The position numbers were made by a program, and so were the translations under genes. From Branchiostoma floridae (lineage: Eukaryota; Chordata; Leptocardii; Amphioxiformes; Branchiostomatidae), in the NCBI RefSeq assembly GCF_000003815.2, contig NC_049997.1:10613705-10677704 (forward strand): a stretch of 64,000 bases of DNA, in the 5' to 3' direction. Under the pieces are notes generated by a model. It saw only the letters and a list, made by a program, of their open reading frames with translations, did not search any database and was not told the DNA's origin. Shown piece by piece: positions 3,922 through 58,860 of this stretch. Within the stretch, counting starts at the first letter, position 1. Every line of letters begins with the position of its first letter.

Positions 3922-6900
3922 CAGTGATTTTAGGGCAGCTGTGGAAGATGAGGATGGAGATGCGAGGACAGCTCTCCATAATAACCTCTACTGCATCATC
4001 TGTCAGCAGCTGGCAACCATCCATGTGGACTTCCTAAAATATGAGAGAGAAAATTGCTTTAAATTTTCATTCTACAGCAGGGCTCTAGCCAGCTCGAAAT
4101 TTTTTTCCGTCAGCTAATTCCAATTGTCATGAAAACTGCAAAAATTCATTTTCCCTATGACACTACAAAGTAGTATTGATAAAATGTTGCCATTGAGACC
4201 TTGAAAACGGGTTTTAATGAGATTATCGTATGTGAAAGAGCGCCGACACACATTGTCAACAATCATAACAATAGCAAAACAAACAGTGTGTGGCTTTTAC
4301 CGACGTGGACGGCGTCCCCAAGCCGCCTGTAGCTTCCACCAAGGATTTTTGTCTGTCAAGGTTTACCATTGGTTTTTAAATGTTTCCGTCAGACGCAGCA
4401 AATTTCCGGCAATTGGCGGAAAAACGGACGCTGGCTAGAGCCCTGTTCTACAGTATAAAAGCCCCTTAATTAATTGCATGATTTTTCAATAGATGCCATG
4501 CATTTACAAGACCATTGATATCAAACCATGAATATGGATTGTTGCACATGACTAGCATCTGACATTATTTGGTCAAATTTGCTAATGCTAGGAACTATTG
4601 ACATTTTCACCCACCGTCAGACACTGTCTGCATTTTCCCGTAGCCAAGCTGATGACACCATCATCAGTTACCTGTATGAAGGTAAACCATTTATGGGATA
4701 CTGTAAATGCAGAAACGTTCGCAGTGAATTAATGTTTGCGGTTTTCGCGATGACTACATCACCATCAACTTAAAACCACTGCGAAAATGTTTCGATTATT
4801 GTATTAGACTGCGGTCTATGGTGTTACCGCAAACTTAAATACACCGTGAAAAGTCCTTTTACCCGCTACCGCAAAATCAAATCCCCGCGCACTTATAAGC
4901 ATTTACAGTAGTCTGTTATGTCAATTAAACGTCCAAGTTTCTATTTCATGATAAAATCTTGGGGGTATTGACCCCTGACAACATTAGCCCTCTTTACCTT
5001 TAAACTAAATTTCACATCAGTTGGCCGAAATTGAGAGATAAATTGATTTGACAGAAAGTGTGGCATATACAATTAAGAAAGCATCTGCATCCAAAAATGC
5101 ACTTCCTTTGTCGATTTTTGAATAACACAACAGGCAGTATATAAAGTGACAAATCATGAACCAAATGTAGAAAAAACACAGGCATTAATAGAAAAGGAAC
5201 CAAAAACAGTTACTTAGTACTAGTGTTTTAGTACTTCAATGTGCCCCTAACTAGCCTGGGTACCATCTGGAAAGTAGTAAGCTCCGGCATTCGTATACAC
5301 TATATACAGTCGCTTCTCTGTGTTTCCGTCTGGGAACGCGGACAATCTTTACCTCTGGAATCGTCCTAATTTTGGACGCAGGCGCTGATTGGTCCCCAAA
5401 TATGAGCAAATTATAAAATGGGTTCAAGCGATCGTTCGAACAGGCGTTCCAACACAAGACATGCCCCCCGTCTGCTTGCAGGAGGGCCTGTTGTCATCGA
5501 ACGAGTGCTTTAGAACCCATTCCTTGATTCGCTCATTAACTGATGTTAGCACCAAACGGTTTGAATGCGCAAGTCTCCAGACGGATAGCAGAAGTGAACA
5601 TATGAGCGAACTACTATCCGGATGGTACCCAGGCTAGCCCCTAACCTTAGTATGTCCAAAGTTGATACTTCTGAGCATCCTGGAGTTTTGTCCCAGTGCC
5701 TCTAACGACCGGTCCGTGATCTTGGCGCAGCCTCCGATGTTCAGGCACATCAGCTGATGACAGTTCTCTGACAGAGCCACGATGGCGCCGTCCGTGACCT
5801 CGATACACCTGCGCAGGTGAACCACCTGTAACAGGTGACAGGACCGTACCAACGACAGGATTCCTGGAGGGGGAAGGAAAAAAGTTATAAAAAGAAGTTA
5901 ATGTATTTTCAATCTGAATTTCATACATACTTGTATTTCTATGGATAGGTGTTGACATTTAATCAATAAATATTGGGAAAGCTCTTCATCATTTCATTCA
6001 TCCTTTGTGAAGTGAAATCATTGAAACCCTTGATCTGTGTGTAAGAAATCCTTCTAGGAATGTTCCTAAATAGATTTGTATAATATTACTATAAAAAGGA
6101 ACAATTCTTCCAAAGGAGGTTTAATGCCACCGACACCTATCTGAATCTCCTTGTTCTTAATGGTACAACTTGTACTACAAGCAAGGCAATTCTTGATAAA
6201 ACTTGCAAGCAAGGAGGTTGAAAAAAGGAATCCTTTTTTCAACCTACTTGTTGCAAGTAAGGAGTTTTAGACTTCAAAGGTCATAGATCGTTTTTACAGA
6301 ACGTTCGAAAACCACTTAGTCACACATGGGCGCCGTGTTGGATGATAACCTGGATGAATAGATTTGTTTGATTATCGCCAGAACATGACGGCAGTACTGA
6401 TGAAAATATCATCTACAGCTCTCTGACATTTTTGTGTGACATGGAATTCACGTCCAGGACATACCTTGTGCCAGAAACCAACTTTCATCACGCTAAAAGT
6501 TAGTCTGTATAGCACAATTGCAAACTCCATGCCAGGACTTAAGTTAGCTAAAAGAGTCCAATGGAGTTAAAAAAGGGGATGGACTGTAACTATGTAAGCA
6601 ATGGAACTCAGTTAGCACGGCAAACATCCAGCCGGTTTCTGAAAAAAAAAGCTTCTTTCCATAAACATGAACATGAACCACGTGCAAGACACAGCCGTGT
6701 GGAGGTCGAGCAGCTTATCATTCAACATGGCCGTTCAAAAGTTCGAACGCGACTGTGATGTCACGTGAAAACGATATATACATACATCTTTATAATGTGG
6801 AGGGAAAAGGTCTTCAAAGAGGAGTCATGGTATGAATTGTTGAGACATAAATTCCCACCTGCAGTTGTGACCGTTGTGGTGTTCCCCTTCACGGCGTTCA

Positions 6901-9900
6901 GGTCGATCTTGCGGAGGTTCCGGCACACGGACAGCTGCTCCAGACTGAGGTCACTGACCTCGCTCTCGCTCAGGTCCAACTCTCGCATCTTCTGGTGAAC
7001 CACCTGGCAGTATGTAGATGTCAAAGGTTAAATGCTCTTTGCCCAACATTAGATCACTGTGACACAGGGCTCTAGCCAGCATCTGTTTTTCTGTCAATTG
7101 ACGGAAATTTGCTACGATGGAAAAATGTTAAAACCAATCCGTCAACCTTGACGGACAAAAATCCTTTGTGGAAGCTACAGGCGGCTTGGGGACGCTGTCC
7201 ACCGCCATAAAATCCACATACTGTTTGTTTTGCTATTGTTATTATTGTTGACGAAGTGTGTCGGTGCCCTTTCGCATACAATAATCTCATTCAAAAACCC
7301 GTTTTTCAAGGTCTTAGTTCAGTCTCTCTAACTCCTGGAATACTAGTACTAGTAGTGTTTTCGCAACAATGGGAATTAGCTGACGGAAAAAAATTTTGAG
7401 CTGGCTAGAGCCCTGCTTGTATATTGAGCCGCACCATTGGTGAAAAGTTGCTAGTAGTAATTGTAGTAGACATAAGAGCGATCAATCACTGTCCTTGTTG
7501 GATATTCTACGACTGGAGCCTATCAGGAAGTCAGCAGATTGTTGATATTCAGATTAGCAGATCAAATTACAAATCAATATGTAAATCAATCTTTTGTCTT
7601 CCACCTGTTCCTGCCTACTGTGATATCATCGCGATAGTTTATATTCAATGACAATGGACAGATCCCAATCGAACGCCGTACCAAACAAATAGAACCAGGT
7701 AGAACCCCCTGTTCTATTTCGAACACCTCTGTCAAAAACAACTCCAGTGGAACAGAAATGGCCAAAGAAAAATTGCTACATAATATATGTACCCTGGTTT
7801 CCACGTGCATGGACAGCATGTCAGAAACCGGGGACTCCTGCCCACCAACAAGGTCATGCTATGCGGTGCCTCCCGCTGCCACTTTGACTAAAATCATAAC
7901 GCCCTTACCACACCTGTATCAGCTCCCTCCTTAGATAACTGTACCCAGCGGATGTAGCCCTCAACATAGAAGGCAGCACAATTTTTTTTTTGGACCGGTC
8001 TGAGAAGATTTGATGGCTCAAAAAAGCTAAACCGAAGTCAGTAGCTTTTATCAGCGAAATAGCGGCGGCGGCCAGTTTTGTGAATGTCCGACAAACCCTG
8101 TCTTTTGACGGAGGTGTTTAAAATAGAACATGATCGAACAGGGGGCGGGGCTAATCGGGATCTGTCCATTTTAAACTTGTAGGTAGATGAACATATCCAG
8201 CTCACCTTGCCGATGTTGTCATCCCTGATGACACCCCTCTTACTCATGAGATGGACCAGCTTGTCCTTGATGTTAGGGGGGAGGCTGTGGACGTGGTTGG
8301 CATGGCAACTGAAGTTAGCCACCAATGACCGCAAAGACCTGAGAATGATTAAAAAAAAAGATGCAGCTATTGTGTACATTTTCAAATTTTGCAATTTTTT
8401 CCTGTTTTCAGGTTGAGTGCTGGTTTTCTTATCCCTGCAAGTCTGGTGTATGTAATATAATACGGTTTTGTACACTTGTTATTGTTTATTATCATTATGA
8501 TTATTTTTCTATTATCATATAAGTTATCAGCACCGGAGGCAACTAGTAAAGGTGTTTATCTGTTTTTGCCTCCCCACCATTGTGTACATGGTCAAGTTCA
8601 AATGAATGAATAAATAAATACATTAATATAACTCAGCAAGTCAAAGGTTAGGCCTCTACCTAATTTGAATTCTCTAACTTTGAGTCTAAGATTGTCATTG
8701 GTTTAACAGGGATAAACAAGTCCACTAGCCCTATTGTCCAGGGCAAGTGAAAGTGCTGTTCGGGCAAGTGCATGTCCTACCCCACTTGTCCGATCGGGCA
8801 AGTAAGATTTTTCCATTGATTTTAGTGCAATTTTGATATACTTGTTACTTTTACATTTTTATACTTCAGAAGACAGAGATCTGACATAATCCAGCTGTTT
8901 AAGATTACACACGGGCTTGACACAGTTAGAGTGAATAACCACTGCAACCTATGCGGGAGAGCCATGTTTACACTGGTGCTTGGCATCAAACACACGAGGG
9001 CACCAGTATAAGTATCAAATCCAAAAAGCTACGGATCCGAGGGCACACTTCTTTCCCACACGAGTTACCCCAGCATGGAATAAACTCTCACAGAGCACAG
9101 TGAATAGCAAGTCAGTGAAAGAGTTCAAGACAAGACTGGGGCAGGAATGGGGACTGCACCCAGACAGACATGAGTACCACTTCTCTTACTGATGCTACCA
9201 CCGCCACAACTAGGACAGCCTTATTACCCGCAAGGGTATCGACTGGCTGTGGTTCAAGGTAAAGATTCAAGGTAAAGATTTACAGTCATGACATCAAGCA
9301 ATTGGCTACAGAGAATTCCATTGCTGGATGTGAAAATGCATATACTATATATAGTAACAGTGACATTTGAATTTTGGGCAAGTGAAAAATTGGTTCGGGC
9401 AAGTACATTTTTATGTGCTTTCCCGATAGGACAAGTGGATTTTAGAAAACTTGTTCAACCCTGTTTAATCACTGTAGAGTTTGTCTGTCACATGACAGGA
9501 GTTTTATGACTACTAATGTACGTGCAATGACAAGTAAAGAATTGCACTAGTGGAGGGTTCAATTCGAAAGTTTGAAAATCAAAATCAATGTAAAAAAACA
9601 CCAGCAATATTGCTAAAGTTTTAAGAAAAGTAATTCTATCTTGCACCTGGATTTTATACTTGTAGATTTTGAAGGCGGAAAAATTTAACTGTTGTAACGT
9701 CATGACGTCACAACAAAGACGAATTTTCTAACGGCCGTGTTAGCTAAATTACACAAAACTGATTAAAAACAGCACACTGGTGATTCAAACAATGTCCTAG
9801 CTGTGTCATCATCTTAAATAATTGAAATGTCACGAGTTATCAAGAGAGAAAATGTGATATTTACCAGCTAAGCAACGACGCAACGGACGAATGATTGTTT

Positions 9901-43089: not shown

Positions 43090-43135
43090 ACGACCTGTCG
43101 CTGTTCTCATTGGCAGACTATGTGGTCTTTCCAAA
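43090..43135 (+). pseudogene. Relic of SLC5 exon 1
   Basis: GACCTGTCGCTGTTCTCATT then GGCAGACTATGTGGTCTT match SLC5 exon 1 at 43526-43565 with few changes. It lacks a start codon and a donor, and the match ends at both sides abruptly. Confidence 0.75.
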
Positions 43136-43497: not shown

Positions 43498-43709
43498 ATG
43501 GTACTGGAGGGTCTAGCAGAGCCGGACCTGCCGCTGTTCTCAGTGGCAGACTATGTGGTCTTCTCTCTCATGATCTGTATCTCCGCTGGTATCGGCATCT
43601 ACTATGCATTCTCGGGAGGAGGGCAGAAAACAACAAAGGTTTGTTAGTTTGTTTATTCGTTAAATATCCGACGTCTGGTCCAGTTGTTAGAAGAAGAGGG
43701 AGTAACGGA

Positions 43710-43743
<34 letters not shown>

Positions 43744-46700
43744 NNNNNNNNNNNNNNNNNNNNNNNNNNNNNNNNNNNNNNNNNNNNNNNNNNNNNNNNN
43801 NNNNNNNNNNNNNNNNNNNNNNNNNNNNNNNNNNNNNNNNNNNATTGTTGTCAGGAGTTTCTCCAAGCTGACAGACAGATGCACGTGGTGCCTGTGGCCA
43901 TGTCTCTGATGGCGTCCTTCATGTCAGCTATCACTGTTCTCGGCATCCCTGCTGAGGTGTAAACACACGGAATCATGTTCCTCATGAAACTCACAGTTTT
44001 GTGTTCTAATGTTGTCAGGAGTTTCTTCTAGCTGACCGACAGATGCACGTGGTGCCCGTGGCCATGTCTCTGATGGCGTCCTTAATGTCAGCTATCACGG
44101 TGCTCGGCACCCCTGCTGAGGTGTACACACATGGGACCATGTTCTTCCTTATATCTCAGTATTAATCCAGATCAAATGTTGTCTTTTTTCTGTTGTCAGG
44201 AGTTCCTTCTAGCTGACCGACAGATGTACGTGGTGCCCGTGGCCATGTCTCTGATGGCGTCCTTCATGTCAGCTATCACGGTTCTCGGCATCCCTGCTGA
44301 GGTGTAAACACACGGAATCATGTTCCTCATGAAACTCACAGTTTTGTGTTCTAATGTTGTCAGGAGTTCCTTCTTGCTGACCGACAGATGCACGTGGTGC
44401 CCGTGGCCATGTCTCTGATGGCGTCCTTCATGTCAGCCATCACTGTTCTCGGCACCCCTGCTGAGGTGTACACACACGGGACCATGTTCTGGATGTTCTG
44501 GATCACCTATATCTTCATGATTGTGATCTCCGCACACCTCTACATGCCCGTGTTCTTCAACCTAGGCGTCACCAGTGCCTACGAGGTAAGTAGAAAGGCT
44601 TTGGAATGTAACGCTGGTTCACCTTTATCCGAGGGTAACCTATATTCGTTGTTTGTAAGAAAAAAACGTATTTAGGGATATGAAGTCGACGAACGCGTCG
44701 ACGGTGGTTTCAAATCGGAACATTTTAAAAATATTGCAAATTTGAAACTACTGTCATCAGACGTAATACTCCTTAATGTGCTGTTTTTAAGGACAACGGA
44801 TAAAGGTCAACCCGAAGATAAAAGTAAACTAGCGTTATAAAAACTTATTCGTATCATATCTATCCTCTGGCAAACTGACCAGAAAAGAAGAAGGGGACGA
44901 CCCAACCTAAAAATAAAGAAAGTGCTGGAGGGAGAAGTTGGTCTAAAGGACCGTGACCATCTGACCGCAATGTTGGACCGAGAATTCTGGAGCGGCATTC
45001 TTCGTGGCACCTTGTTCTACGAGGATCATCTGAACTGAACTGACCTTAACGTGTAACACACATTCGCATAATTCCACCAGGTGCCATTATACCGCCACCT
45101 CAAAAAATGTTGTTACAGAGGCCTCCTCAAGATTCTTTTCAACACCTAAATATCTGAATTATGTTACATTTAGGATACTTAACATTCGGTGTTCAAGACA
45201 ATCTTGGGAAGACCTCTACATAACGTTTTTTGACGTGGCGGTATTATGGCACCTGGTGAAATTATGATAGCCGATGCTACTGACAGATGAATTTTGTTGA
45301 CACGAAGTGTCCTTCAAATCACAAATGGCAAAGGATGTAGGAAATGTGTAGAATGTTTTTTCTGGTTCTTATAAAAAGACCACCAAAATGACCTCAGCTG
45401 TGTATGAGGTCAGCTAAGTTCAAAGGTTTGACCTTTCTGTGTAATTGCAACACATGTTGTACATATCATGCGTACCTAGAGGGACCTATGGTGGGCAGGA
45501 ATTTCGCGCCCTGTATTTTAAGACTTGAGCGCGCATGCGCAAGACAAGTTGTTGCGCATGGATAGTTTATCCGTCTTAACGTCAAGGTCGCTATTGGAAC
45601 GGACCATCTTTCTAGGGGGGATGGAAACAAGAGAAAGGGAAATAAGTGAGAGAGAACAGAGAGAGGCGTAGTGACTGGAATGTAGTTCTAATTAGAAATG
45701 AAGATTTAAAAAAACCCGACTAATATTAGGAATAAGGATAGAAATAACAAGACAAGACAAGCAGATACGAGCTCTGATTTTCGGATTTTTCAAATTTTCT
45801 TTTCGGAGATTGTCAAAACAAGGAATTACGGCAAACCCCAATTTATATCATGTTGTAGTCTTGAAGTTGTAGAAGTGACGCCGATGCTAGTGAGGTATCC
45901 ATCTTGGTGTTATATTGACGAGGCTGCCATGTACGAGTCTCACCTCTAACATTTTTTTTTGAGGAATAAAATACTTGCTAGCTGTACTATTTATGATGTC
46001 TATTTTTCATAATCAATGCATCTTATTTTTACTCTTTTGCCATCTTGCATTAGATTTGGAGTCTGTACAGGTCAGTGTGTCCTGTTTACTTGCTGTTGTG
46101 ACCTTATATCATTAATCACAAAGCGACCTTGATCCTTTTCGAACGCCATAGAGGTTACTGACCTACCCTACCCTGTTATTTCTGGAGAAGACGGAAACGT
46201 GGTGACGTTAGTGATTTGAACAAATGTCAAATCTATTTCCGACGTCCCTTGCCAGTATGTTGTTCTCCTTTGCCAGGCACGTTTGACAAAGTATCGAGTT
46301 ACATGGCTGACCGGCCATCCTTGGCTGACCATGAAACTCTAGTATTGAGTATATATATATATAAATAGAGTGTGTGGGGAAAGAAAACATCAAGCCAGCC
46401 GTCCACACTTAGGAACTGTATTCGAACCAGTGCATGATTTCGAGCCCAGAACACCGAGGAAGCCAAACGCCGAAACATGACGTTTATTGTGTACTGGTTC
46501 TTATACTGGGAACAAGCGGCTCCAACGCCTTTTCTGAAGATGTGGCGTAAGCCACAGCAAGTACATTTTATGGGTGACATCCTCTGCAGACTGCAAAAAT
46601 TGTGCGATAGGGCGAAAAAAAATAAGATGGGTGAAAAAACAACAAGATGGCTACATTTTCAAAAATAGGCACCATAAAGTTGTGATGACTGTTGTAAAAA

Positions 46701-49700
46701 TTATTAAAGGGACAAAACATGGTATTACAGCCAACAAGGCATTAATTCATGTATTTAAGACATGTACTGGTGTGGTAAAAGCAACATTAGTGTGGTAAAC
46801 TGGCATCACCAACAAAGTTGGTAACCACACTCATAGCTTCCATATTGGTGTCACTTTTACAACTATCCAATAAGTTTCATTTCTACGACTACAGTCCTGG
46901 ATACCTCGCAAGTGTCAATTCTACAATTGTTAGACTACAACACAATATATTTGCTCATTTTGGTACTTAAGCGCCATATTGAGCATCCCTTAAGAAGAAA
47001 AAAATTCTTGTTTTTTTTTTTCAATCAGGAGAAAATAAATGCGCGCGCTGATGTCATCCATTAAATTTACTTGCTGTGGCCTAAGTTTGGACGAGGTTGA
47101 GGTTGTCCTTCCCCACGTATCCTAGAATTGAGTTTGCTGAGATACCATTTAGCCCCGAATCAAGGTCTAATCTTCCAGGGTTCTCAGTATTAAAAGTAAA
47201 TGCATAAAACGGATGTACACATGCACGGTGCAGATAGATCATATGAAGATCAGACTAACATATAAAATATAGACTTATATCATTAACAAGTCTTATTTCT
47301 ATCTCCTATAGTACCTTGAGAGAAGGTTCTCCGTCGTAGTACGAAGACTCGGTTGTGCCACCTTTATTTTGCAAATGGTGAGTTCCCCTTTGTTTTTACC
47401 CCTTTTCTGGTGCATAGACCAGGTGTTTCTGGCCATATTACTCAGGGTCCTGCTATTCATGTCCAAATCGCCAAACGACGCTTTTATAGGCTTCAGCAAC
47501 CCAATGATGCTTCATGTCGCTAGACGACGCTTCTATAGGTTTTTGGTAGGTAAATGATGATGTTCTGTTTATATTTTAGACAATATACATGGGGATCTGT
47601 CTGTACGCCCCTGCGCTGGCTCTGGAAGAAGGTGAGTAGATAAGTTATGATGAAAATGAAATAAATGACGTACATTATCTAAGGATAATTAAGTCATAGA
47701 GATGGAAAGAATTCGAAAAGAGACAAGAGAGAGGCACACAGATTGGGAAAGAGAGAAGAAAAAGAGGGAAAAGAGAGGGAGAGAGAGAGAGAGAGAAAGA
47801 GGAGAGAAAGAGTGGGAGATAGAGGGAGAGATACAGGGAGAGACACAGAGAGAGAGACAGAGAGAAAAAGAGAGACAGTACGAAAGATACAGAGTGCGGG
47901 AGGGAGAAAAGAGGGAAAGAGAGAAAGGAGAGAGAGAAATTGTGTCAAATTTAAAATCTGTGACATCTATTTCCTCAGTGACCGGAGTTAACCTCTGGGG
48001 AGCCGTGTTGACCCTAGGAATTGTGTGCACCTTTTACACTACAATAGTAAGTATACGTATACTCGTACGTATCGTGCTCAGTGCTGTATGGAGTGTACAA
48101 TGTACAAGGAATATTCATAAGCGAAAATTATGTTTTTTTATATAGTACGTAAGCTGTATTGTACATGTAACATTTCCAATAACAGTAATTTAGACTCACC
48201 TTCATCGATACTTGGGCCTTCCCTTCTACCCATTTACGAGTACGTCGTCCCAATAATGTTATAAGCACCAAGATATCAGTTTCCCGTCTGGATTTGAAAT
48301 AAGTTAGTAAAGGGAGGCCATCGTATAAGCAGAAGCTTTGCCCTCTTGCGGGTCATGTTTTTTGTATTTCATTGCCATGTACCTGTTGTTTTTCTTTAAT
48401 TTTTCTTTAATAAATAGATAACAAAACAAGACTATTTTGTGAATCCCTCCACCTAGGGCGGTATGAAGGCTGTGATGTGGACCGACACGTTCCAGGTGTG
48501 TGTCATGTGTATGGGCTTCCTGGCCGTCATCATCCAGGGCAGCATCAACGTGGGGGGCTTTGGGGAAGTCTGGAGCAGGAACCTGGATGGAGAGAGGCTG
48601 ACTTTCTTTGTGTGAGTATTGTCACAGTCACGTCGATGTAGGTTAGACATCCAGGTAATAAGATACGCCAAAAAGTAGTTACTCAAGCAACTGGATATGA
48701 TTTTGGAAACGGTCAGACGTTTCAACTGGAATGCACCAGTTTTCGTCAGTGACACCGTTCTTCCAGATCACTTCTGTTCAGTGTCATTGACGAAAACTGG
48801 TGCATTCCGGTTGAAATATTTGACCGTTTCCAAAACCATTATCCAGTTGGTTGAGTAACTACTTTTTTTGGCGTATTATCACAGTCATATAGTGCTGCGT
48901 ACTATGACAGGTTCAGGTCAGGATGATTCAGGTTGCATACGTGTGCTAGAAAATGTTTTTTCCTTTTTTGAGGGGGGATACATATCAATTTACCTGAGAG
49001 AGATAGCTTTTGGTAAGTCCGGACTTGGTTCCTGACATTCAGTTTTCTTTTCTTTTCTTAGAACTGAACGTTTTTACAAGTCCACTTCCAGTTCCGAGTT
49101 TTAGGTACACAGCACTACTGTCAGAGTGTTTCCTTCTTTTGGTAGCTTTCGTAGCTGCTGGAATAGATTGTATCCTTTTTATATGCACCCGGCGGAAAGA
49201 AAAAGGGGCATGTAATAAAAAGGGTACATCAATCTCTGCTCGGAGAGCACAATTGGTTTAGTCATATGAGCTATACTCTAGAGTGTAAGAAACAATGAGC
49301 CCGTTCAGGGACCCAACTGCCTATACGCAGGTCAAATATAGACATAAACAAACTACGTCATGGCATTTTTATGTAAACCAACCGACGGATCGGAGGCCAT
49401 ACTTATACATATTCGGATACAAAGCATGGTCAAAACACCTGGGAACCTTTGACCTGCGCAAACGCAGTTGGACCCGTGAACGGGTTTGTACAAAGAATCG
49501 AGTTTGTTTCGAAATTTCCATTCAAAAGGTTCGATGCCGACCCGAGAATACGTCACAGCACGTGGAGTGTTCTGATTGGTGGAGGGTTCATGTGGACGGC
49601 TGTGTTCGGAGTGAACCAGGCGCAGGTGCAGCGGTACCTGAGCTGTAAGAACCTCCGCAAGGCACAGACGTAAGGCTGACATTGTCTTCGCTTTATACTT

Positions 49701-52700
49701 TATTTATTTGCAAATTCATGAAAGGTTACAGACAGTAAAAAAAGTAAGAAGTTTCCATTCTACACAGCTATCTATATACATGATTCTACATTGTTTACTG
49801 GGAGGTTTGACTTCTTCTTTGGAGGCGGTGGCTGTTGAAAAGTCCCACGTCTTTAATGATTAGTAGGTTCTGTGATTGTAACAGGAATATTAGCTTTTTG
49901 GAGGTGACCAACTGGTGAAAAGTTGGAAATATTGTATTGATTGTGTCGAAAAGGTTGTTTCTTTCATCCTCATAATGGGGGTAGTTACATATAAAATGAT
50001 ACTTCAACAACAATCTCTATTGACACGACAAAAGTACAGCGATTTTCGTAAGGTCTACATGTATAACAACTACTTACAGTACAACTAAACACATATATAT
50101 GGATATCTACATAATATATTATGGATACATCAACATAAAGGGTCTAGCATGTCATTTACACTATTGGTTCTACAGGGCTCGAAATACCACCTGCATATGC
50201 AGGTTAGTGCAGGTAGAATTGGAGCTGTGCAGGTATTTCTGATGTCTACCTACACCTAACCTGCACTGGTCCATGTACTGGGTTTGATACATAAATGTCC
50301 TACGATGTAGGTGTATATAGATTGTTATTAGCTGCATTGACTGTTACCTCCTATAAAGTATAAACGAAAAAAACAGCAATGGTTCCTGAACAATTTTAGT
50401 ATGATCCATACTTCCTAAATTCAGAGCGGTGCAGGTGAATTTTTTCCGGTGCAGGTAGTTTTCAATGTTACCTGCACCAATGCAGGTAGGCAGGAAAAGT
50501 ATTTTGAGCCCTGATATACAAATCACTTCATTAGGCTATGTTGCTTCGATGATGTGGGTTACATTTTCTGGGCTGTTCAATATTGATGCGAGCGCATGTA
50601 ATAAGACCGGAACCTGGCCAAATGCCACTCTAAAGATGCACTCTCATTGTATTTGCGTCAAGCTTGCGTCACTGCGGGGTTCGTTCACTGCGTCACTGTT
50701 TTGTTATTTTCTCCGTTTTTGTTATGATTTAGATACTCCATACTAAGTGTGACTTAGAAGACGAAGAAATACACAAAGAAAAGGTAAGAAAATTCGTTGA
50801 GTATCTTTCAAACCCCGGAGTGACGCAAACTTGACGCAAGTGCAGTGAGAGTTCACCTCAAGGATACGGGTTACATGGATAGGATAGTAACAGCATTTTT
50901 GTCCATGAGCGTTGGCCAGATTTTCTTTTTGAACTCGTACATTGAAAATTAAAACTAGTTCAAATTTCATTTTCAATGTACGAGTTCAAAAATAAAATCT
51001 GGCCATCATTTGATTGGAACGTTTTCTGTTACAGAGCGCTGTACTTGAACATCCCCGGGTTGTTCGTTATCGTTACGCTGGCGTCTCTGTGCGGCCTGGT
51101 GATGTACGCATTGAATAAGGATTGCGACCCCGTCACCGCAGATTATCTAAAAACTTCCGATCAGGTATGTACATGTACCTGGTTCACTGTGCGTAGGGGT
51201 GGGTACCGGTACAGAAAATTCAGGTCCAGGTCCGGTTCAGGTCTGGAGGATCAGGTCCAGGTCCGGACCTGAACCTGGACCTGATGCAGTATGACTCATA
51301 CCAATGGTCCATTTCACTACAAAGAAATCTGTTTGGTGGAGTACTAGACTTACACTGGCGTTTTAAAACCCTTCAACGCTATCTACACCAGTACGATTGG
51401 CTGTAAAACTTGGTAGAAATTACTATAAACTGTACTCTACTTCACTCTTTTTATTTTCTTCCACCTGCAAGCGCCAAAATGTGTGAATGCCTGATGAAAA
51501 CATCCAGTCCACCTAATTTTTTCAGGTCCGGTTTTTCTGGACCGGTCCAATAAGAAAAACCGGTTTTGTGCCGGTACGCTGTACCGATACCCAGCCCTAA
51601 ATGTGCGTTAAGGCCACACTAAATTTATTCGTTGCTTCTCGGAATCGCCTGCATGTCCTATTTTTCCCAATTTGAAAAAATTGGGCCCACTTACTATTCA
51701 TGTATTCTTACTTCCTTTTATTTCCAAAATAATCATATGGGCTTCAATTTCTACACAGTACGTGCTTATCTTTGACAGTGCCCATATTGTATTGTTCCTG
51801 TTGCAATTTAAATGAATTCAAAGTAAACACTATCTACAAGGTCACAATCACGAGCGCCACCTATCGTATTTTGGAAGAATAGCAAAGTAAACTTTTGCAC
51901 AATGTTTATCGCTTTAGGACTCATCACTCGTAACTTTAAAACCTGCAACAGCTATGTACACATGACCTGGGTCTAGAAGTTGGCTCCTATGTTCGCTTCT
52001 GCTACTAGTAGAGAAGCGAATGTATATGGTACGTTGATGAAGGTTAGACATCCTTGTAATAAGATACGCCAAAAAACAGTCACTCAAGCAACTGGATGTG
52101 ACTTTGGAAACGGTCAGACGTTTCAGATAGCCATCCGGCGTCTTTCGTCAGTGTCTGAAACGTCTGACCGTTTCCAAAACCATATCCAGTTGCTTGAGTA
52201 ACTGCTTTTTGGCGACTGTATATGGTGTATAATAAAAGTTGGAGCAATAAGCAATTGTATATATAATATACGTCGGAGCAAACTACTATCCGGATGGTAG
52301 CTAGGCTAATGTGAACATTAATGTTCCATATCATCCTAGCTGATGCCCTATACGCTGATGTTGATCAGCTGGCTGCCTTATTGCCAGCTTTATCTACAAG
52401 GTCACATTCACGAGCGTCCCCTATTTTTTTCGGAAGAATAAACCTTTACAAAATGTTTCCCACAACAGCTGTGTAAACATTAATGTTTTATATCATCCTA
52501 GCTGATGCCGTACACGGTGATGATGTTGCTCAGCTGACTGTCTTATTGCCAGCTTTATCTACAAGGTCACATTCACGAGCGTCCCTATCTTTTTTCGGAA
52601 GAATAAACTTTTACAAAATGTTTCCCACAACAGCTGTGTAAACATTAATGTTTTATATCCCCCTAGCTGATGATGTTACTCAGTTTGCTACCTTATTGCC

Positions 52701-55700
52701 AGCTTTATCTACAAGGTCACATTCACGAGCGCCGCCTTTCTTTTTTCGGAAGAACAAACCTTTACAAAATGTTTCCCGCAACAGCTGTGTAAACATTAAT
52801 GTTTTTATATTGCAATCCATACATAGTATGGGATTGCAATATATTGTTATATTGCAATCCATACATAGTATGGGATTGCAATATATTGTTATATTGCAAT
52901 CCATACATAGTATGGGATTGCAATATATTGTTATATTGCAATCCATACATAGTATGGGATTGCAATATATTGTTTTTCCTTCGTTTCTTCTCCTCCTGTC
53001 AAAATCTTCAAGTCGATTCAACTTTTTCACTTTTGGGGCAAATGAGCTGAAATTTGGCATGGAGGTAGGGATAGCAAATACCCCCAGGTGTTTTTTTCAC
53101 TTTTTTGATAGAGGCCTTAGAAATTTTGATATTTTGGGTTTTTGGTCATTTTTAGACAAAATATATATATTTTGGGCCCCTGTGCCCTGGTATTAAACCA
53201 TAATGACCTGAAATTTGGTACAGAGGTGCATTGGACATATCAGCACAGAAAACCATCAACACTTTCTTCATAGATCACTTTAAAAATGAGTTATTTTAGG
53301 GTTTTGGCCATTTTTAACTAAAAATGTCTATTTTTGGCTCCTATGCCCTTGTATGTAGGCTAAATGAACTGAAATTTGGTATATAGGTGCATTGGATATA
53401 TGAGCACAGGGCTCCATCAACACTTTCTTCATTGGTCACTTCAAAAATGAGTTATTTTGGGGTTTTCGGCCATTTTTGACAAAAAATGTATATTTTTGGC
53501 TCCTATACCCTTATATGAAAACCTAATGACCTGAAATTTGGTACATAGGTGCATTGGACATATGAGCACAGGGTCCAATCAACACTTTCTTTATAGATCC
53601 CTTTAAAAATGAGTTATTTTGGTTTTTTTGGCTATTTTTGACAAAAAAATGTATACTTTTGGCTCCTATACCCTTGTATGAAAACCTAATGACCTGAAAT
53701 TCGGCATGAAAGTGTGTCTGGGAAGTGCCCATAGTACTTCATTTTCACTTTGGGCATACAATACTTTAAATTGTTGAATTTTGGAATTTTTTGCCATTTA
53801 CGGACTAAAAATGTTAAGTTTTGGCTCCTGTACCTATGTATGAAAACCAAATGGTCTGAAATTTGGTATGAAGGTGCCTACGTTATGTAGCCACAGGGCT
53901 CTATTCACACCTATGGTGTACATCAATCAAAAATTGTTAAATTTGGGATTGGCATGCATATGAAGATGGATTGCAATATGCTGTATTTGCTCCCAAGCAA
54001 ATGTCGGCCTTTCTAGTTTTTGCTGAGTTTCTTCTCCTGTCAAATCTTCAGACCCCTTTAACTTTTTCATTTTTGGACCAAATGAGCTGAAATTTGGCAT
54101 GGGGGTAGGGATATCAAATACCCCCAGGTGTTTTTTTCACTTTTTTGACAGAGGCCTTAGAATTTATGATATTTAGGGTTTTTGGTCATTTTTAGACAAA
54201 ATATGTACATTTTGGGCCCCTGTGCCCTGGTATTACAAGCTAATGACCTGAAATTTGCTACAGAGGTGCATTGGACATATGAACACAGAAAACCATCAAC
54301 ACTTTATTTATAGATCACTTCAAAAATTAGTTATTTTAGGGTTTTTGGCCATTTATTACGAAAAATGTATATTTTTGGCTCCTGTGCCCTTGTATTAAAA
54401 CCAAATGACCTGAAATTTGGTACAGAGGTGCGTTTGACATATGACCACAGAACCCCATCAACGCTATATTCATTGTTTACTCCAAAAATGAGTTATTTTA
54501 GGGTTTTTGGCCATTTTTTACTAAAAATGCATATTTTTTGCTCCTATGCCCTTGTATAGAAACCAAATGACCTGAAATTTGGTACAGAGGTGCATTGAAC
54601 ATATGCTCACAGGACCCCATTGGCACTTTCTTCAGAGATCACTTCAAAAATTAGTAATTTTGGGGTTTTCAGTCATTTTTGACTAAAAATGTATATTTTG
54701 GGCTTCTATGCCCTTGTATGTAAATCAAATGACCTGAAATTTGGTACAAAGGTAAATTGGACATATGACAACAGGACCCCATCAACACTTTCTTCATAGA
54801 GCACTTATGAAATGAGTTATTTTGGGGTTTTTAGCCATTTTCAACTAAAAAATTATATTTTTGGCTCCTATGCCCTTATATTGAAACCAAATGACCTAAA
54901 ATTCGGCATGAAGGTGTGTAGGACAAGTGCCCACAGTACTTCATGTTCCCTTTGAGCAAACAGTACTTCAAATTGTTGAATTTGGGGATTTTTTCCAGGA
55001 TGAAGATGGATTGCAATATGCTGTATTTGCTCCCAAGCAAATGTCGGCCTTTCTAGTTTTTTCTCGGTTTCTTCTCCTCCTCCTGTCAAATCTTCAAATT
55101 GATTCAACTTTTTCATTTTTAGGCCAAATGAGCTGAAATTTGGCATGGAGGTAGGGATAGCAAATACCCCCAGGTGTTTTTTTCATTTTCTTGATAGAGG
55201 CCTTAGAATTTATGATATTTAGGGTTTTTGGTCATTTTTAGACAAAATATGTATATTTTGGGCCCCTGTGCCCTGGTATTACAAGCTAATGACCTAAAAT
55301 TTGGTACAGAGGTGCATTGGACATATGAGCACAGAAAACCATCAACACTTTGTTCATAGATCACTTCAAAAATGAGTTATTTTAGGGTTTTTGGCCATTT
55401 TTGACTAAAATTGTATATTTTATGCTCCTATGCCCTTGTATAGAAACCAAGTGACCTGAAATTTGGTACAGAGGTGCATTGAACATATGCTCACAGGGTC
55501 CCATTGACACTTTCTTCATAGATCACTTCAAAAATTAGTTATTTGGGGGTTTTCAGTCATTTTTGACTAAAAATGTATATTTTTGGCTTCTATGCCCTTG
55601 TATGTAAACAAAATAACCTGAAATTTGGTACAAAGGTAAATTGGACATATGACAACAGGACCCCATCAACACTTTCTTCATAGAACACTTATAAAATGAG

Positions 55701-56185
55701 TTATTTTGGGATTTTTAGCCATTCTAAACTAAAAAAATGTATATTTTTGGCTCCTATGCCCTTATATTGAAACCAAATGACCTAAAATTCGGCATGAAGG
55801 TGTGTAGGACAAGTGCCCACAGTACTTAATTTTCCCTTTGAGCAAACATTACTTCAAATTGTTGAATTTTGGGATTTTTTCAAGGATGAAGATGGATTGC
55901 AATATGCTGTATTTGCTCCTAAGCAAATGTCGGCCTTTCTAGTTTTATTTGATTTTGGACAGATGAGGACAATATGGCACTGCACTAAAGTTTTTGTAAC
56001 TTATATTAACAGTGCTATATACAAGGTACAGACAGAAGGTAAAAGTGGTCTTTTACCTCCCCAACCGAACTGTGGTCTTTTACCTCCCCATCTCAGCTGA
56101 TGCCCTACACGGTGATGATGTTACTCAGTTGGCTGCCTGGTCTCCCTGGGGTGTTCGTGTCAGCTGTGTTTGCCGGAGCCCTTAG
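43498..56185 (+). CDS. SLC5A8-like: Sodium-coupled monocarboxylate transporter (SLC5A8/SLC5A12 type), 3' end not found
   Basis: A plasma-membrane sodium symporter for lactate, short-chain fatty acids and similar anions, by family. Coding exons: 43498-43638, 44364-44585, 47312-47377, 47580-47631, 47979-48046, 48457-48611, 49529-49669, 51035-51164, 56097-56185. All borders are AG/GT and all phases agree; 354 codons plus two bases, of about 600 expected. Conserved stretches: [20 protein letters not shown] (helix 1), [112 protein letters not shown]. These track human SLC5A8 residue by residue. The remaining exons lie beyond 64 kb or are hidden in repeats. SLC5A5, SLC5A6 or SLC5A12 identity is not excluded. 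Confidence 0.92.
43716..43743. repeat. (GT)n microsatellite at an assembly gap
   Basis: Runs into 100 N at 43744-43843, so its length and anything in the gap are unknown. Confidence 0.9.
43855..43956 (+). pseudogene. SLC5 exon 2, tandem copy 1
   Basis: Acceptor TTGTCAG then [33 protein letters not shown], 34 codons identical in frame to exon 2. It is followed by GTG TAA, so read-through stops at once; GAG|GTGTAA could also act as a weak donor. Confidence 0.9.
44019..44172 (+). pseudogene. SLC5 exon 2, tandem copy 2
   Basis: Acceptor TGTTGTCAG then [20 protein letters not shown] with [20 protein letters not shown], diverging after GTMF into FLISQY and a stop. No donor at the normal place. 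Confidence 0.9.
44200..44301 (+). pseudogene. SLC5 exon 2, tandem copy 3
   Basis: Like copy 1: [20 protein letters not shown] and GIPAE followed by GTG TAA. The 62 bp after it are nearly identical to those after copy 1, so copies 1-2 and 3-4 arose as a pair. Confidence 0.9.
44609..44840. mobile_element. TA-flanked MITE, copy 4 of 4
   Basis: Ends TAACGCTGGTTCACC and, on the other strand, TATAACGCTAGTTTAC. Starts 24 bp after the donor of SLC5 exon 2. Confidence 0.8.
44845..45040 (+). mobile_element. LINE ORF2 tail fragment
   Basis: Reads [34 protein letters not shown] and a stop. The RGRP-x-L-DRExW pattern is the usual end of several LINE ORF2 proteins. Confidence 0.55.
45067..45266. mobile_element. 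MITE with 57-bp inverted ends
   Basis: CATAATTCCACCAGGTGCCA and TATACCGCCACC on the left mirror GGTGGCGGTATTATGG-type sequence and TGGCACCTGGTGAAATTATG on the right, with small mismatches. Confidence 0.8.
45840..46110. repeat. Possible decayed copy of the 27.1 kb element
   Basis: Words like TTGTAGAAGTGACGCC, GAGGTATCC, TTTTGCCATCTTGC and TACTTGCTGTTGTGACC occur in the same order as in 27122-27670, but with much divergence. Confidence 0.4.
46548..47084. mobile_element. Inverted-repeat element of about 540 bp, copy 2
   Basis: Inverse of 27122-27670, same ends (TAAGCCACAGCAAGTA and TACTTGCTGTGGCCTAA). In the SLC5 intron between exons 2 and 3. Confidence 0.85.
47700..47945 (+). repeat. Polypurine tract in SLC5 intron 4
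   Basis: About 240 bp almost purely A and G (GAGA, GGGAGA, AAAGA) ending 30 bp before the exon 5 acceptor. Open frames here are compositional. Confidence 0.9.
48631..48881. mobile_element. Foldback repeat, copy 1
   Basis: Arms of about 105 bp around a 30-bp loop: AAGATACGCCAAAAAGTAGT, GGAAACGGTCAGACGTTTCA, CACCAGTTTTCGTCAGTG, then their inverses. The ACGTTTC plus TTCGTCAG words recall Penelope-like ends. In the SLC5 intron after exon 6. Confidence 0.8.
49684..50020 (-). mobile_element. LINE 3' fragment in SLC5 intron 7
   Basis: The minus strand reads [17 protein letters not shown] and [12 protein letters not shown], related to the fragment at 42214-42591. It starts 14 bp after the exon 7 donor. 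Confidence 0.65.
50173..50513. mobile_element. hAT-like MITE with GTGCAGGT repeats
   Basis: Ends CAGGGCTCGAAAT and ATTTTGAGCCCTG. The left part carries GTGCAGGTA words and the palindrome CCTGCATATGCAGG where its relative at 28032 has GTGCACCCA and GGGTGCATGTGCACCC. Confidence 0.75.
50638..50857. mobile_element. MITE related to the one at 41.6 kb
   Basis: CACTCTCATTGTATTTGCGT and CAAGCTTGCGTCACTGCGG on the left, mirrored by CTTGACGCAAGTGCAGTGAG on the right. Internal AGATACTCAACGAATTTTCT (minus) matches AGATGCTCAACGAATTT at 41682. Confidence 0.65.
50940..51000. repeat. Short inverted repeat near SLC5 exon 8
   Basis: ACTCGTACATTGAAAATTAA and TTTTCAATGTACGAGT form a hairpin with ACTAGTTCAAA as loop, ending 34 bp before the exon 8 acceptor. 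Confidence 0.7.
51194..51599. mobile_element. hAT-like MITE with TAGGGGTGGGTACCGG end
   Basis: Ends TAGGGGTGGGTACCGGTAC and GTACCGATACCCAGCCCTA. Flanks ACTGTGCG and AATGTGCG (7 of 8 equal) fit hAT. Starts 29 bp after the SLC5 exon 8 donor. Second copy at 61145-62512. Confidence 0.88.
51830..52805 (+). repeat. 160-bp tandem array carrying the start of SLC5 exon 9
   Basis: Three clear units (about 52310-52805) and a diverged one at about 51830-51960. Each has an acceptor-like CCTAG, then LMPYT-like sequence (52341, 52500; shortened at 52668), then TTGCCAGCTTTATCTACAAG, GTCACATTCACGAGCG and AAAATGTTTCCC. Copy at 52341 reads [13 protein letters not shown]; that at 52500 reads [11 protein letters not shown] and a stop. 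A foldback repeat (52031-52214) and a MULE-like relic (52272-52306) interrupt it. Confidence 0.85.
52031..52214. mobile_element. Foldback repeat, copy 2
   Basis: Same family as 48631-48881: AGGTTAGACATCC, AAGATACGCCAAAAAACAG and GGAAACGGTCAGACGTTTCA, mirrored after TTTCGTCAGTGTC. Shorter loop. Confidence 0.8.
52806..52973. repeat. Four tandem 42-bp hairpins
   Basis: Each unit is itself a palindrome: ATATTGCAATCC, CATAC, ATA, GTATG, GGATTGCAATAT. They form the left edge of the satellite block. Confidence 0.95.
52974..55945 (+). repeat. Higher-order satellite: three blocks of 161-bp units
   Basis: The basic unit of about 161-164 bp carries ATGACCTGAAATTTGGTAC, AAAATGAGTTATTTT and TTTGGCTCCTATGCCCTTGT. 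Five or six units form a block of 0.9-1.05 kb; blocks begin at about 52974, 54021 and 55061. Every block opens with CTTCTCCTCCTGTCAAATCT and a variant unit (GAGCTGAAATTTGGCATGG, ACCCCCAGGTG), and closes with another variant and TGGATTGCAATATGCTG, GCAAATGTCGGCCTTTCTAG. Small open frames inside have no meaning that I can see. Confidence 0.93.
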
Positions 56186-56189
56186 GTAG

Positions 56190-58129: not shown

Positions 58130-58860
58130 AAAAGAAAACAAATTTCCCCTCAGAAAAGTGCCAAAATTAATCATTTTAAAGTTTTTTATGTCAAAAATTT
58201 TACTTGAATCTTGTTACTAAGTATCTAATGCCTATCTATACCAAATTTCAGGTCATTTAATTGTAACACCAGGGTACAGGAGCCAAAAGTGTCCTTTTTT
58301 GGTCAAAAATTGGCAAAAAATCGCAAAAATAAGCATTTTGTTGCACTGTACACCAAAAGTGTTATTGAATTTATATGAAGGGATTATCAAGGCACATCTG
58401 TGTCAAATTTCAGCTCATTCGGTTGCAATACCAAGGTACAGGAGCCAAAAGTGTCCTTTTTTGGTCAAAAATTGGTCAAAAAATCGCAAAAATAAGCATT
58501 TTGTTGTACTGTACACCAAACGTGTTATTGAATTTATATGGGGGCATTATCAAGGCACATCTCTGTCAAATTTCAGCTCATTTGGTTGTAATACCAGGGT
58601 ACAGGGGCCAAAATATACAGTTTTGGTCTAAAATTGACCAAAAATCTCAATAAAATCATTTTAGAGGCAGATATGAAAAAACTGAGCAAAAAAGCATCAA
58701 GGTATTGGCCCATTCTACCCCTGTGCCAAATTTCAGGTCATTCGGTCCAGGAACGGCGGAGATGAATCACTTTGAAGATTTAACAGGAGAAAGAAGAAAG
58801 AAGAAACATTACGAATACAATATATTTCACCATACTATGTATGGCTGAAATATAAACATC
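58130..58860 (-). repeat. Inverted satellite block with terminal hairpin
   Basis: Four units of 161-163 bp in the opposite orientation (CAAATTTCAGGTCATTT and CAAATTTCAGCTCATT at 58241, 58406, 58567 and 58730). It ends GAAGATTTAACAGGAGAAAG and the hairpin ATATTTCACCATAC, TAT, GTATGGCTGAAATAT at 58830-58855. Confidence 0.88.

Follow-up and report, generated by a model that had tools for sequence, protein, structure and literature searches.

When the beginning of one exon occurs four times in succession within a gene, the question arises whether the additional copies take part in splicing, are inert remnants of local DNA duplication, or exist in the assembly only. Such an array lies in the lancelet Branchiostoma floridae, within the window considered here, that is, the whole analysed stretch of 64,000 nucleotides (C19:10613705-10677704 of the searched genome, 513 Mb in 431 contigs). 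Judged from its sequence, the host gene is an SMCT1/SMVT-like SLC5 transporter. In profile searches exon 2 matches the sodium:solute symporter family, PF00474 (E 1.3e-8, 34.6 bits against a cut-off of 22.8) and exon 1 alone gave no PF00474 match; among solved structures, exon 2 matches SMCT1 (7sl9, E 4.2e-23) and SMVT (E 9.3e-20). The original prediction, which took this exon to encode the second transmembrane region of an SLC5 protein, was right about the family, but the alignment covers residues 44-117 of SMCT1 7sl9, which would comprise more than one membrane segment. In window numbering, 15 pieces of exon can be followed in order along the gene, beginning at 43498 and ending at about 69613, the last of them about 5.6 kb past the window end. 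There is no stop in any of the 15; since all are open and conserved, the gene does not look like a pseudogene, with the reservation that this set omits one exon between exons 7 and 9 and that several edges are approximate. The features around the array are as follows (a slash marks a splice junction).

43498..43638, forward strand: exon 1, 47 aa, ending in GGGQKTTK; donor AAG/GTTTGT, score 7.67, 52nd percentile
43744..43843, no strand: assembly gap in intron 1, exactly 100 N, ending 11 bp before copy 1
43855..43980, forward strand: copy 1 (126 nt), probable relic of the 5' part of exon 2, with TAA at 43960-43962 and without the second half
43981..44018, forward strand: spacer S1, 38 nt, ending in TTCTAATGTTGTCAG, identical to S3
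44019..44145, forward strand: copy 2 (127 nt), probable relic of the 5' part of exon 2; TAC kept at codon 36, stop at 44163-44165 if entered
44146..44199, forward strand: spacer L, with the long pyrimidine tract TTTTTTCTGTTGTCAG
44200..44325, forward strand: copy 3 (126 nt), probable relic of the 5' part of exon 2, with TAA at 44305-44307
44326..44363, forward strand: spacer S3, identical to S1, supplying the acceptor of exon 2
44364..44585, forward strand: exon 2 (copy 4), complete, 74 aa, 222 nt, phase 0; donor GAG/GTAAGT
47312..47377, forward strand: exon 3, 22 aa, with which the gene carries on past exon 2

The predicted arrangement of four tandem in-phase copies with TTGTCAG acceptors proved exact to the base: copies of the 5' part of exon 2 start at 43855, 44019, 44200 and 44364, all in phase. 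The motif CAG/GAGTTYCT is found at 43852, 44016, 44197 and 44361, each time within TTGTCAG/GAG and in phase 0 with the donor AAAG/GTTTGT that follows 43638. Pairwise identity among the four copies is 90.5-94.4% over 126 nt, and the units are 164, 181 and 164 nt long. The match of the upstream copies to exon 2 is confined to its first 126-127 nt, so that copies 1-3 are without the last 95-96 nt and without the GTAAGT donor, which only copy 4 reaches. Entry at any of the three upstream acceptors leads to a stop at codon 36-49, the stop being GTG TAA in copies 1 and 3, as predicted, and a separate TAA slightly further on in copy 2; the spacer behind copies 1 and 3, however, had been called near-identical, and their 62-bp tails are in fact identical (62/62). 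Thus, what is found are incomplete direct repeats of an exon edge together with the adjoining intron, as in relics of partial-exon tandem duplication. As the upstream copies have acceptors, end the frame and are without the exon's own donor, they are most likely removed as part of the intron.

Several simpler origins can be set aside. Chance is ruled out by the four motif matches, compared to 0.03 expected upon shuffling, and by a blastn E of 8e-137 for the alignment of the first pair of copies with the second (43846-44145 with 44191-44490, 95.3% identity over 300 nt). A transposon or another dispersed repeat does not fit either: a 356-bp array query returned at least six matches, namely itself, the second unit and the exon-2 parts of four paralogues, and a genome search with spacer L returned just spacer L. 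The array DNA is found at a single place in the 513-Mb genome. The whole spacers S and L align with each other better than shuffled ones (0.0005); the parts before their shared ending do not (0.22). Birth of the array from a purely coding duplication, with intron gain, is rejected as well, each unit having a TTGTCAG intron tail and none an exon-1 end.

The order of events can be read, in part, from the differences between the copies. Of the 16 variable sites in 126 nt, four (92, 108, 117 and 119) unite copies 1 and 3 versus copies 2 and 4; copies 1 and 3 have in common T31I, the TAA stop, one silent change and T40I. The copy-1/3 bases of sites 108, 117 and 119 are missing from all four nearest paralogues on C19; that of site 92 occurs in one of them. 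In the first round, the end of intron 1 and about 126 nt of exon 2, on the two sides of their border, would have been duplicated as one unit, placing one relic before the exon; in the second, the relic-plus-exon pair would have been duplicated, yielding three relics and the exon. The copy adjoining the rest of the gene stayed whole, and therefore such duplications would have been tolerated. The four common changes and the identical 62-bp tail agree with the two rounds, first single and then of the pair, that had been predicted, but two further features stay unexplained by them: sites 6 and 81 conflict with the two-round tree, and the differences within the two types of copy (1 versus 3, 2 versus 4) are biased towards silent ones. 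Eleven of these 14 differences are silent, with about 26% expected (P 0.00005 against neutrality), and 11 of 14 fall at third positions (P 0.0007); between copies 2 and 4 it is all seven of seven. Direct selection on both copies 1 and 3 is implausible, given the stop inside each. The silent bias rather suggests exchange with functional alleles: the exon-like parts of the relics may possibly have been refreshed from such alleles by conversion or unequal exchange.

Was there, perhaps, no such array in the animal at all? The gap next to copy 1 is of exactly 100 N, like the sole other gap in the window, and is therefore probably a placeholder, behind which more copies could be hidden. The chromosome assembly of B. 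floridae described by Simakov et al. 2020 (PMC7269912) was built from about tenfold Sanger shotgun coverage of one diploid animal, with 19 chromosomes, and its two divergent haplotypes were first assembled separately and only then merged. Lancelets are described as very polymorphic and rich in subgenic rearrangement, with an SNP rate of 4.39% in B. belcheri (PMC4284660). At a locus with a single relic before its exon, the two haplotypes could have been placed one after the other close to the gap, so that two copies became four; this would fit a merging of haplotypes, if the assembly at hand is that of Simakov et al. (PMC7269912). The gap ends only 11 bp before copy 1, the 4.7% difference between the two pairs is close to the SNP rate among alleles in B. 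belcheri (PMC4284660), and the third-position differences between copies 2 and 4 are as those between alleles of a working exon would be. However, the pairs are not separated by a gap; copy 2 is cut after 127 nt, and the sequence goes on to copy 3 by way of a spacer for which no other match was found; and the reads would be Sanger reads (PMC7269912), presumably long in comparison to the 345-bp unit. Since haplotypes in tandem would leave a similar signature in copies 2 and 4, we retain this explanation, at a low probability; even if it were true, a relic-exon pair would remain.

The splice signals give reason to hesitate over calling the upstream copies inert. The scoring matrices were made from sites that had been selected automatically in SLC5 loci of the same genome, 47 acceptors and 86 donors; they are rough, since G stands at the last exon base in only 57% of the 86 donors, among which there are probably false sites. 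Acceptor 3, which lies in spacer L, scores 8.75 bits (55th percentile of 47), more than any other AG scored from 43660 to 44585. Over 38 intronic nt, acceptors 2 and 4 do not differ; they score 4.16 bits (15th percentile), and acceptor 1 is cut by the N gap. With acceptor 3 above acceptor 4, and acceptors 2 and 4 equal, sequence alone does not explain why acceptor 4 should win; the shortness of its exon (222 nt compared to 386, 567 and 731) and the strong donor may favour it. This donor, GAG/GTAAGT, scores 11.49 and is the top of the donor set, in which it is itself included. That only the last copy has a donor, as had been predicted, holds for GTAAGT, but there is a weaker candidate in copy 3, between 44225 and 44226: GAT/GTACGT, at 7.55 bits (51st percentile of 86), is near the exon-1 donor with its 7.67. 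It arose from a C-to-T change seen in copy 3 alone, the other copies reading GATGCACGT, without GT, at this position. Together with the best-scoring acceptor it would delimit one more feature.

44200..44225, forward strand: candidate 26-nt exon within copy 3, between the best-scoring acceptor and the donor GAT/GTACGT

Inclusion of this candidate would shift the frame, which then ends 26 codons beyond exon 1. Accordingly, the upstream acceptors, above all that of copy 3, might take a part of splicing and lower or tune the output of the gene, either by long exons running into exon 2 or by the 26-nt exon 44200-44225, with early-stop transcripts as the result. We consider such competing acceptors, or a poison exon, fairly unlikely on the sequence evidence. 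All forms carry the early stop that a poison exon needs (43960, 44163, 44305, or the frameshift of the 26-nt candidate), all three upstream acceptors giving it at codon 36-49; the best acceptor is that of copy 3, the acceptor of the real exon being no better than that of copy 2, with which it shares its intronic sequence, and a donor of near exon-1 strength has appeared in copy 3 only. Set against this, the exons that begin at acceptors 1-3 would be 731, 567 and 386 nt long and should be disfavoured by exon definition relative to one of 222 nt; the 26-nt exon is very short, and few donors of the set (8%) are preceded by a T; the matrices come from automatically picked sites, false ones probably among them; and none of the paralogues found by genome searches shares the array. 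Far less credible still is the use of copies as in-frame cassette exons of 102 nt (34 aa, phase 0) that would end at the PAE sites GAG/GTGTAA or GAG/GTGTAC. Such exons would preserve the frame, the differences are mostly silent, and the protein match in the C2 paralogue stops exactly after PAE, as an exon would; but these donors score only about 4 (16th-17th percentile of 86), and a second copy of a membrane segment would presumably disrupt the transporter.

If the upstream copies are relics of duplication, are comparable remnants seen elsewhere? Two more are present in the same gene.

43092..43129, forward strand: 38-bp relic from within exon 1, 95% identical, about 400 bp upstream of exon 1
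52310..52810, forward strand: second relic array, in intron 9, of three 165-bp tandem units that carry degenerate fragments of the exon-10 acceptor (5') edge
56094..56186, forward strand: exon 10 (edges approximate), source of the relics at 52.3 kb

The exon-10 edge pieces of the intron-9 array lie at 52332-52378, 52494-52543 and 52668-52693. Introns of the gene also hold arrays with a period of about 162 bp (window positions 53130-55789 and 58242-58662), near the period of the exon-relic arrays.

Edges of exon 2 are duplicated in five paralogues, L036, L035, L041, L008 and L006. In L036, on C17, about five 50-bp tandem units extend across the exon-2 acceptor (7138-7393, minus strand), several of them with an AG in the acceptor position; in L035 the exon-2 acceptor is duplicated, and in L041, L008 and L006 the donor side. 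Other exons are involved, too: in L038, on C8, the exon-6 acceptor with the first 84 nt is duplicated 157 bp upstream (6363-6452, 97.8% over 90 bp), in C19b the exon-3 acceptor, and in L039 the end of exon 11. Such leftovers of exon edges in sister genes make it most likely that the array, too, is a commonplace remnant of DNA duplicated locally; it may still interfere with splicing.

Duplications that recur at exon edges could mean that exons are preferred targets. Over 14 stretches of SLC5 loci (173,930 bases), duplicated segments of 40 bp or more, no further than 1 kb apart, were counted and compared to random shifts. Before the count, exon matches were removed if they covered less than 60% of the query exon or overlapped with an earlier match. 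Not included in the counts are exon 11 of L039, two events of this gene (the exon-10 array and the piece of exon 1) and, in L005, a 41-bp piece at a distance exceeding 1 kb. The duplications of this short range cover 7.2% of the bases and touch 8 of 139 exons, fewer than the 10.95 expected, so that a general targeting of exons is not supported; without this gene, the coverage is 4.7%, and 7 of 124 exons are touched (7.7 expected). For exon 2 by itself, duplications touch 6 of 17, with 1.61 expected (P 0.0015), or, without this gene, 5 of 16, with 1.38 expected (P 0.006); multiplied by 15 exon types, these P values become about 0.02 and 0.09. Moreover, the loci had been selected for similarity in exon 2, and the 17 cases include the second half of a split exon in the C2 gene. 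The excess at exon 2 is, hence, suggestive only. Of the three roles that the original prediction had held out for the early copies, that of relics is the best supported, because duplications of exon edges recur in the gene and its paralogues and touch exons no more than random shifts do; a role as poison exons or competing acceptors would fall mainly to copy 3.

The position of the intron itself varies in the family, as read from the ends of protein matches. The intron between K and E that holds the array (the K/E intron) is present in the C13 and C2 genes and absent from the four nearest C19 paralogues as well as from the C1 and C18 paralogues; the C8 and C17 genes have an intron six or seven codons later, and in L011 it is apparently upstream. 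In a tree of exons 1-2, this gene groups with two intronless paralogues (ultrafast bootstrap 77-79), and a tree placing it outside the four nearest paralogues is not rejected (AU p 0.15). As every repeat unit contains the intron tail, the K/E intron predates the array.

In the region C19:10878000-10901999 (L028-L030), exons 1 and 2 occur as four fused units of 121 aa, two per strand. On neither strand did a search show an exon-3 match between the two units, which may therefore be alternative first exons or partial duplicates.

A bolder view is that the exon-1/2 border is a hotspot in lancelet SLC5 genes, where duplication of exon edges supplies spare splice sites and so drives the turnover and sliding of introns; the array would then be a transition caught midway, with the choice of acceptor unsettled and copy 3 turning into a 26-nt poison exon. 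It draws on the duplications counted among the 17 exon-2 units, this gene included, and on an intron that may be absent, at K/E, six or seven codons later, or upstream. We think that this view is probably wrong.

How does the array compare to known systems? Mutually exclusive exons that arise by tandem exon duplication are tandem copies of one exon in phase, and the array is alike in this respect; they need, however, two complete exons, and here only copy 4 is complete, so that copies 1-3 cannot replace exon 2. Closer are the pseudo-exons left by partial exon (exon-edge) tandem duplication, which likewise are incomplete direct repeats of an exon end and intron, contain stops and adjoin the intact exon. 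The present case differs in having three relics from, apparently, two rounds, a candidate new donor in one relic, and the silent bias and site conflict that suggest exchange between copies. In the searched literature on amphioxus SLC5A8, on partial exon duplication with splice acceptors and on amphioxus tandem exon duplication (the last by titles and the beginnings of abstracts), no description of the array was found. In the Drosophila cases presented by Lehmann et al. 2010 (PMC2891723), introns were gained or slid by tandem duplication of a segment inside the coding sequence, the intron arising via a proto-splice site. Local tandem duplication that makes duplicate splice sites, with stops in the intronised copies, is common to these cases and ours; unlike them, the array has intron sequence in every unit, so that an intron was already present.

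Taken together, the anatomy of the array, its stops, its single place in the genome, the comparable events in paralogues and the lack of an exon excess over random shifts point to copies 1-3 being inert relics and copy 4 the real exon 2 of a functional-looking SLC5 gene, a reading to which we assign a probability of about 0.68. Several observations speak against it: silent differences, at 11 of 14, do not fit simple decay; exon 2 is touched 6 times in 17 versus 1.61, which a purely random process does not predict; and acceptor 3 outscores acceptor 4 (8.75 versus 4.16), with a copy-3 donor (7.55) close to that of exon 1 (7.67). Hence, there is a modest chance of an effect on splicing, mainly via copy 3.

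In practice, gene predictors may choose the wrong acceptor at the array. If the upstream copies are only relics, the locus is a clear example of lancelet genes freely gaining, and keeping, broken exon ends. If, instead, the exon-1/2 border were indeed a hotspot, intron sliding by splice-site duplication could be watched within one gene family and, given the high polymorphism, would possibly be visible within one population.
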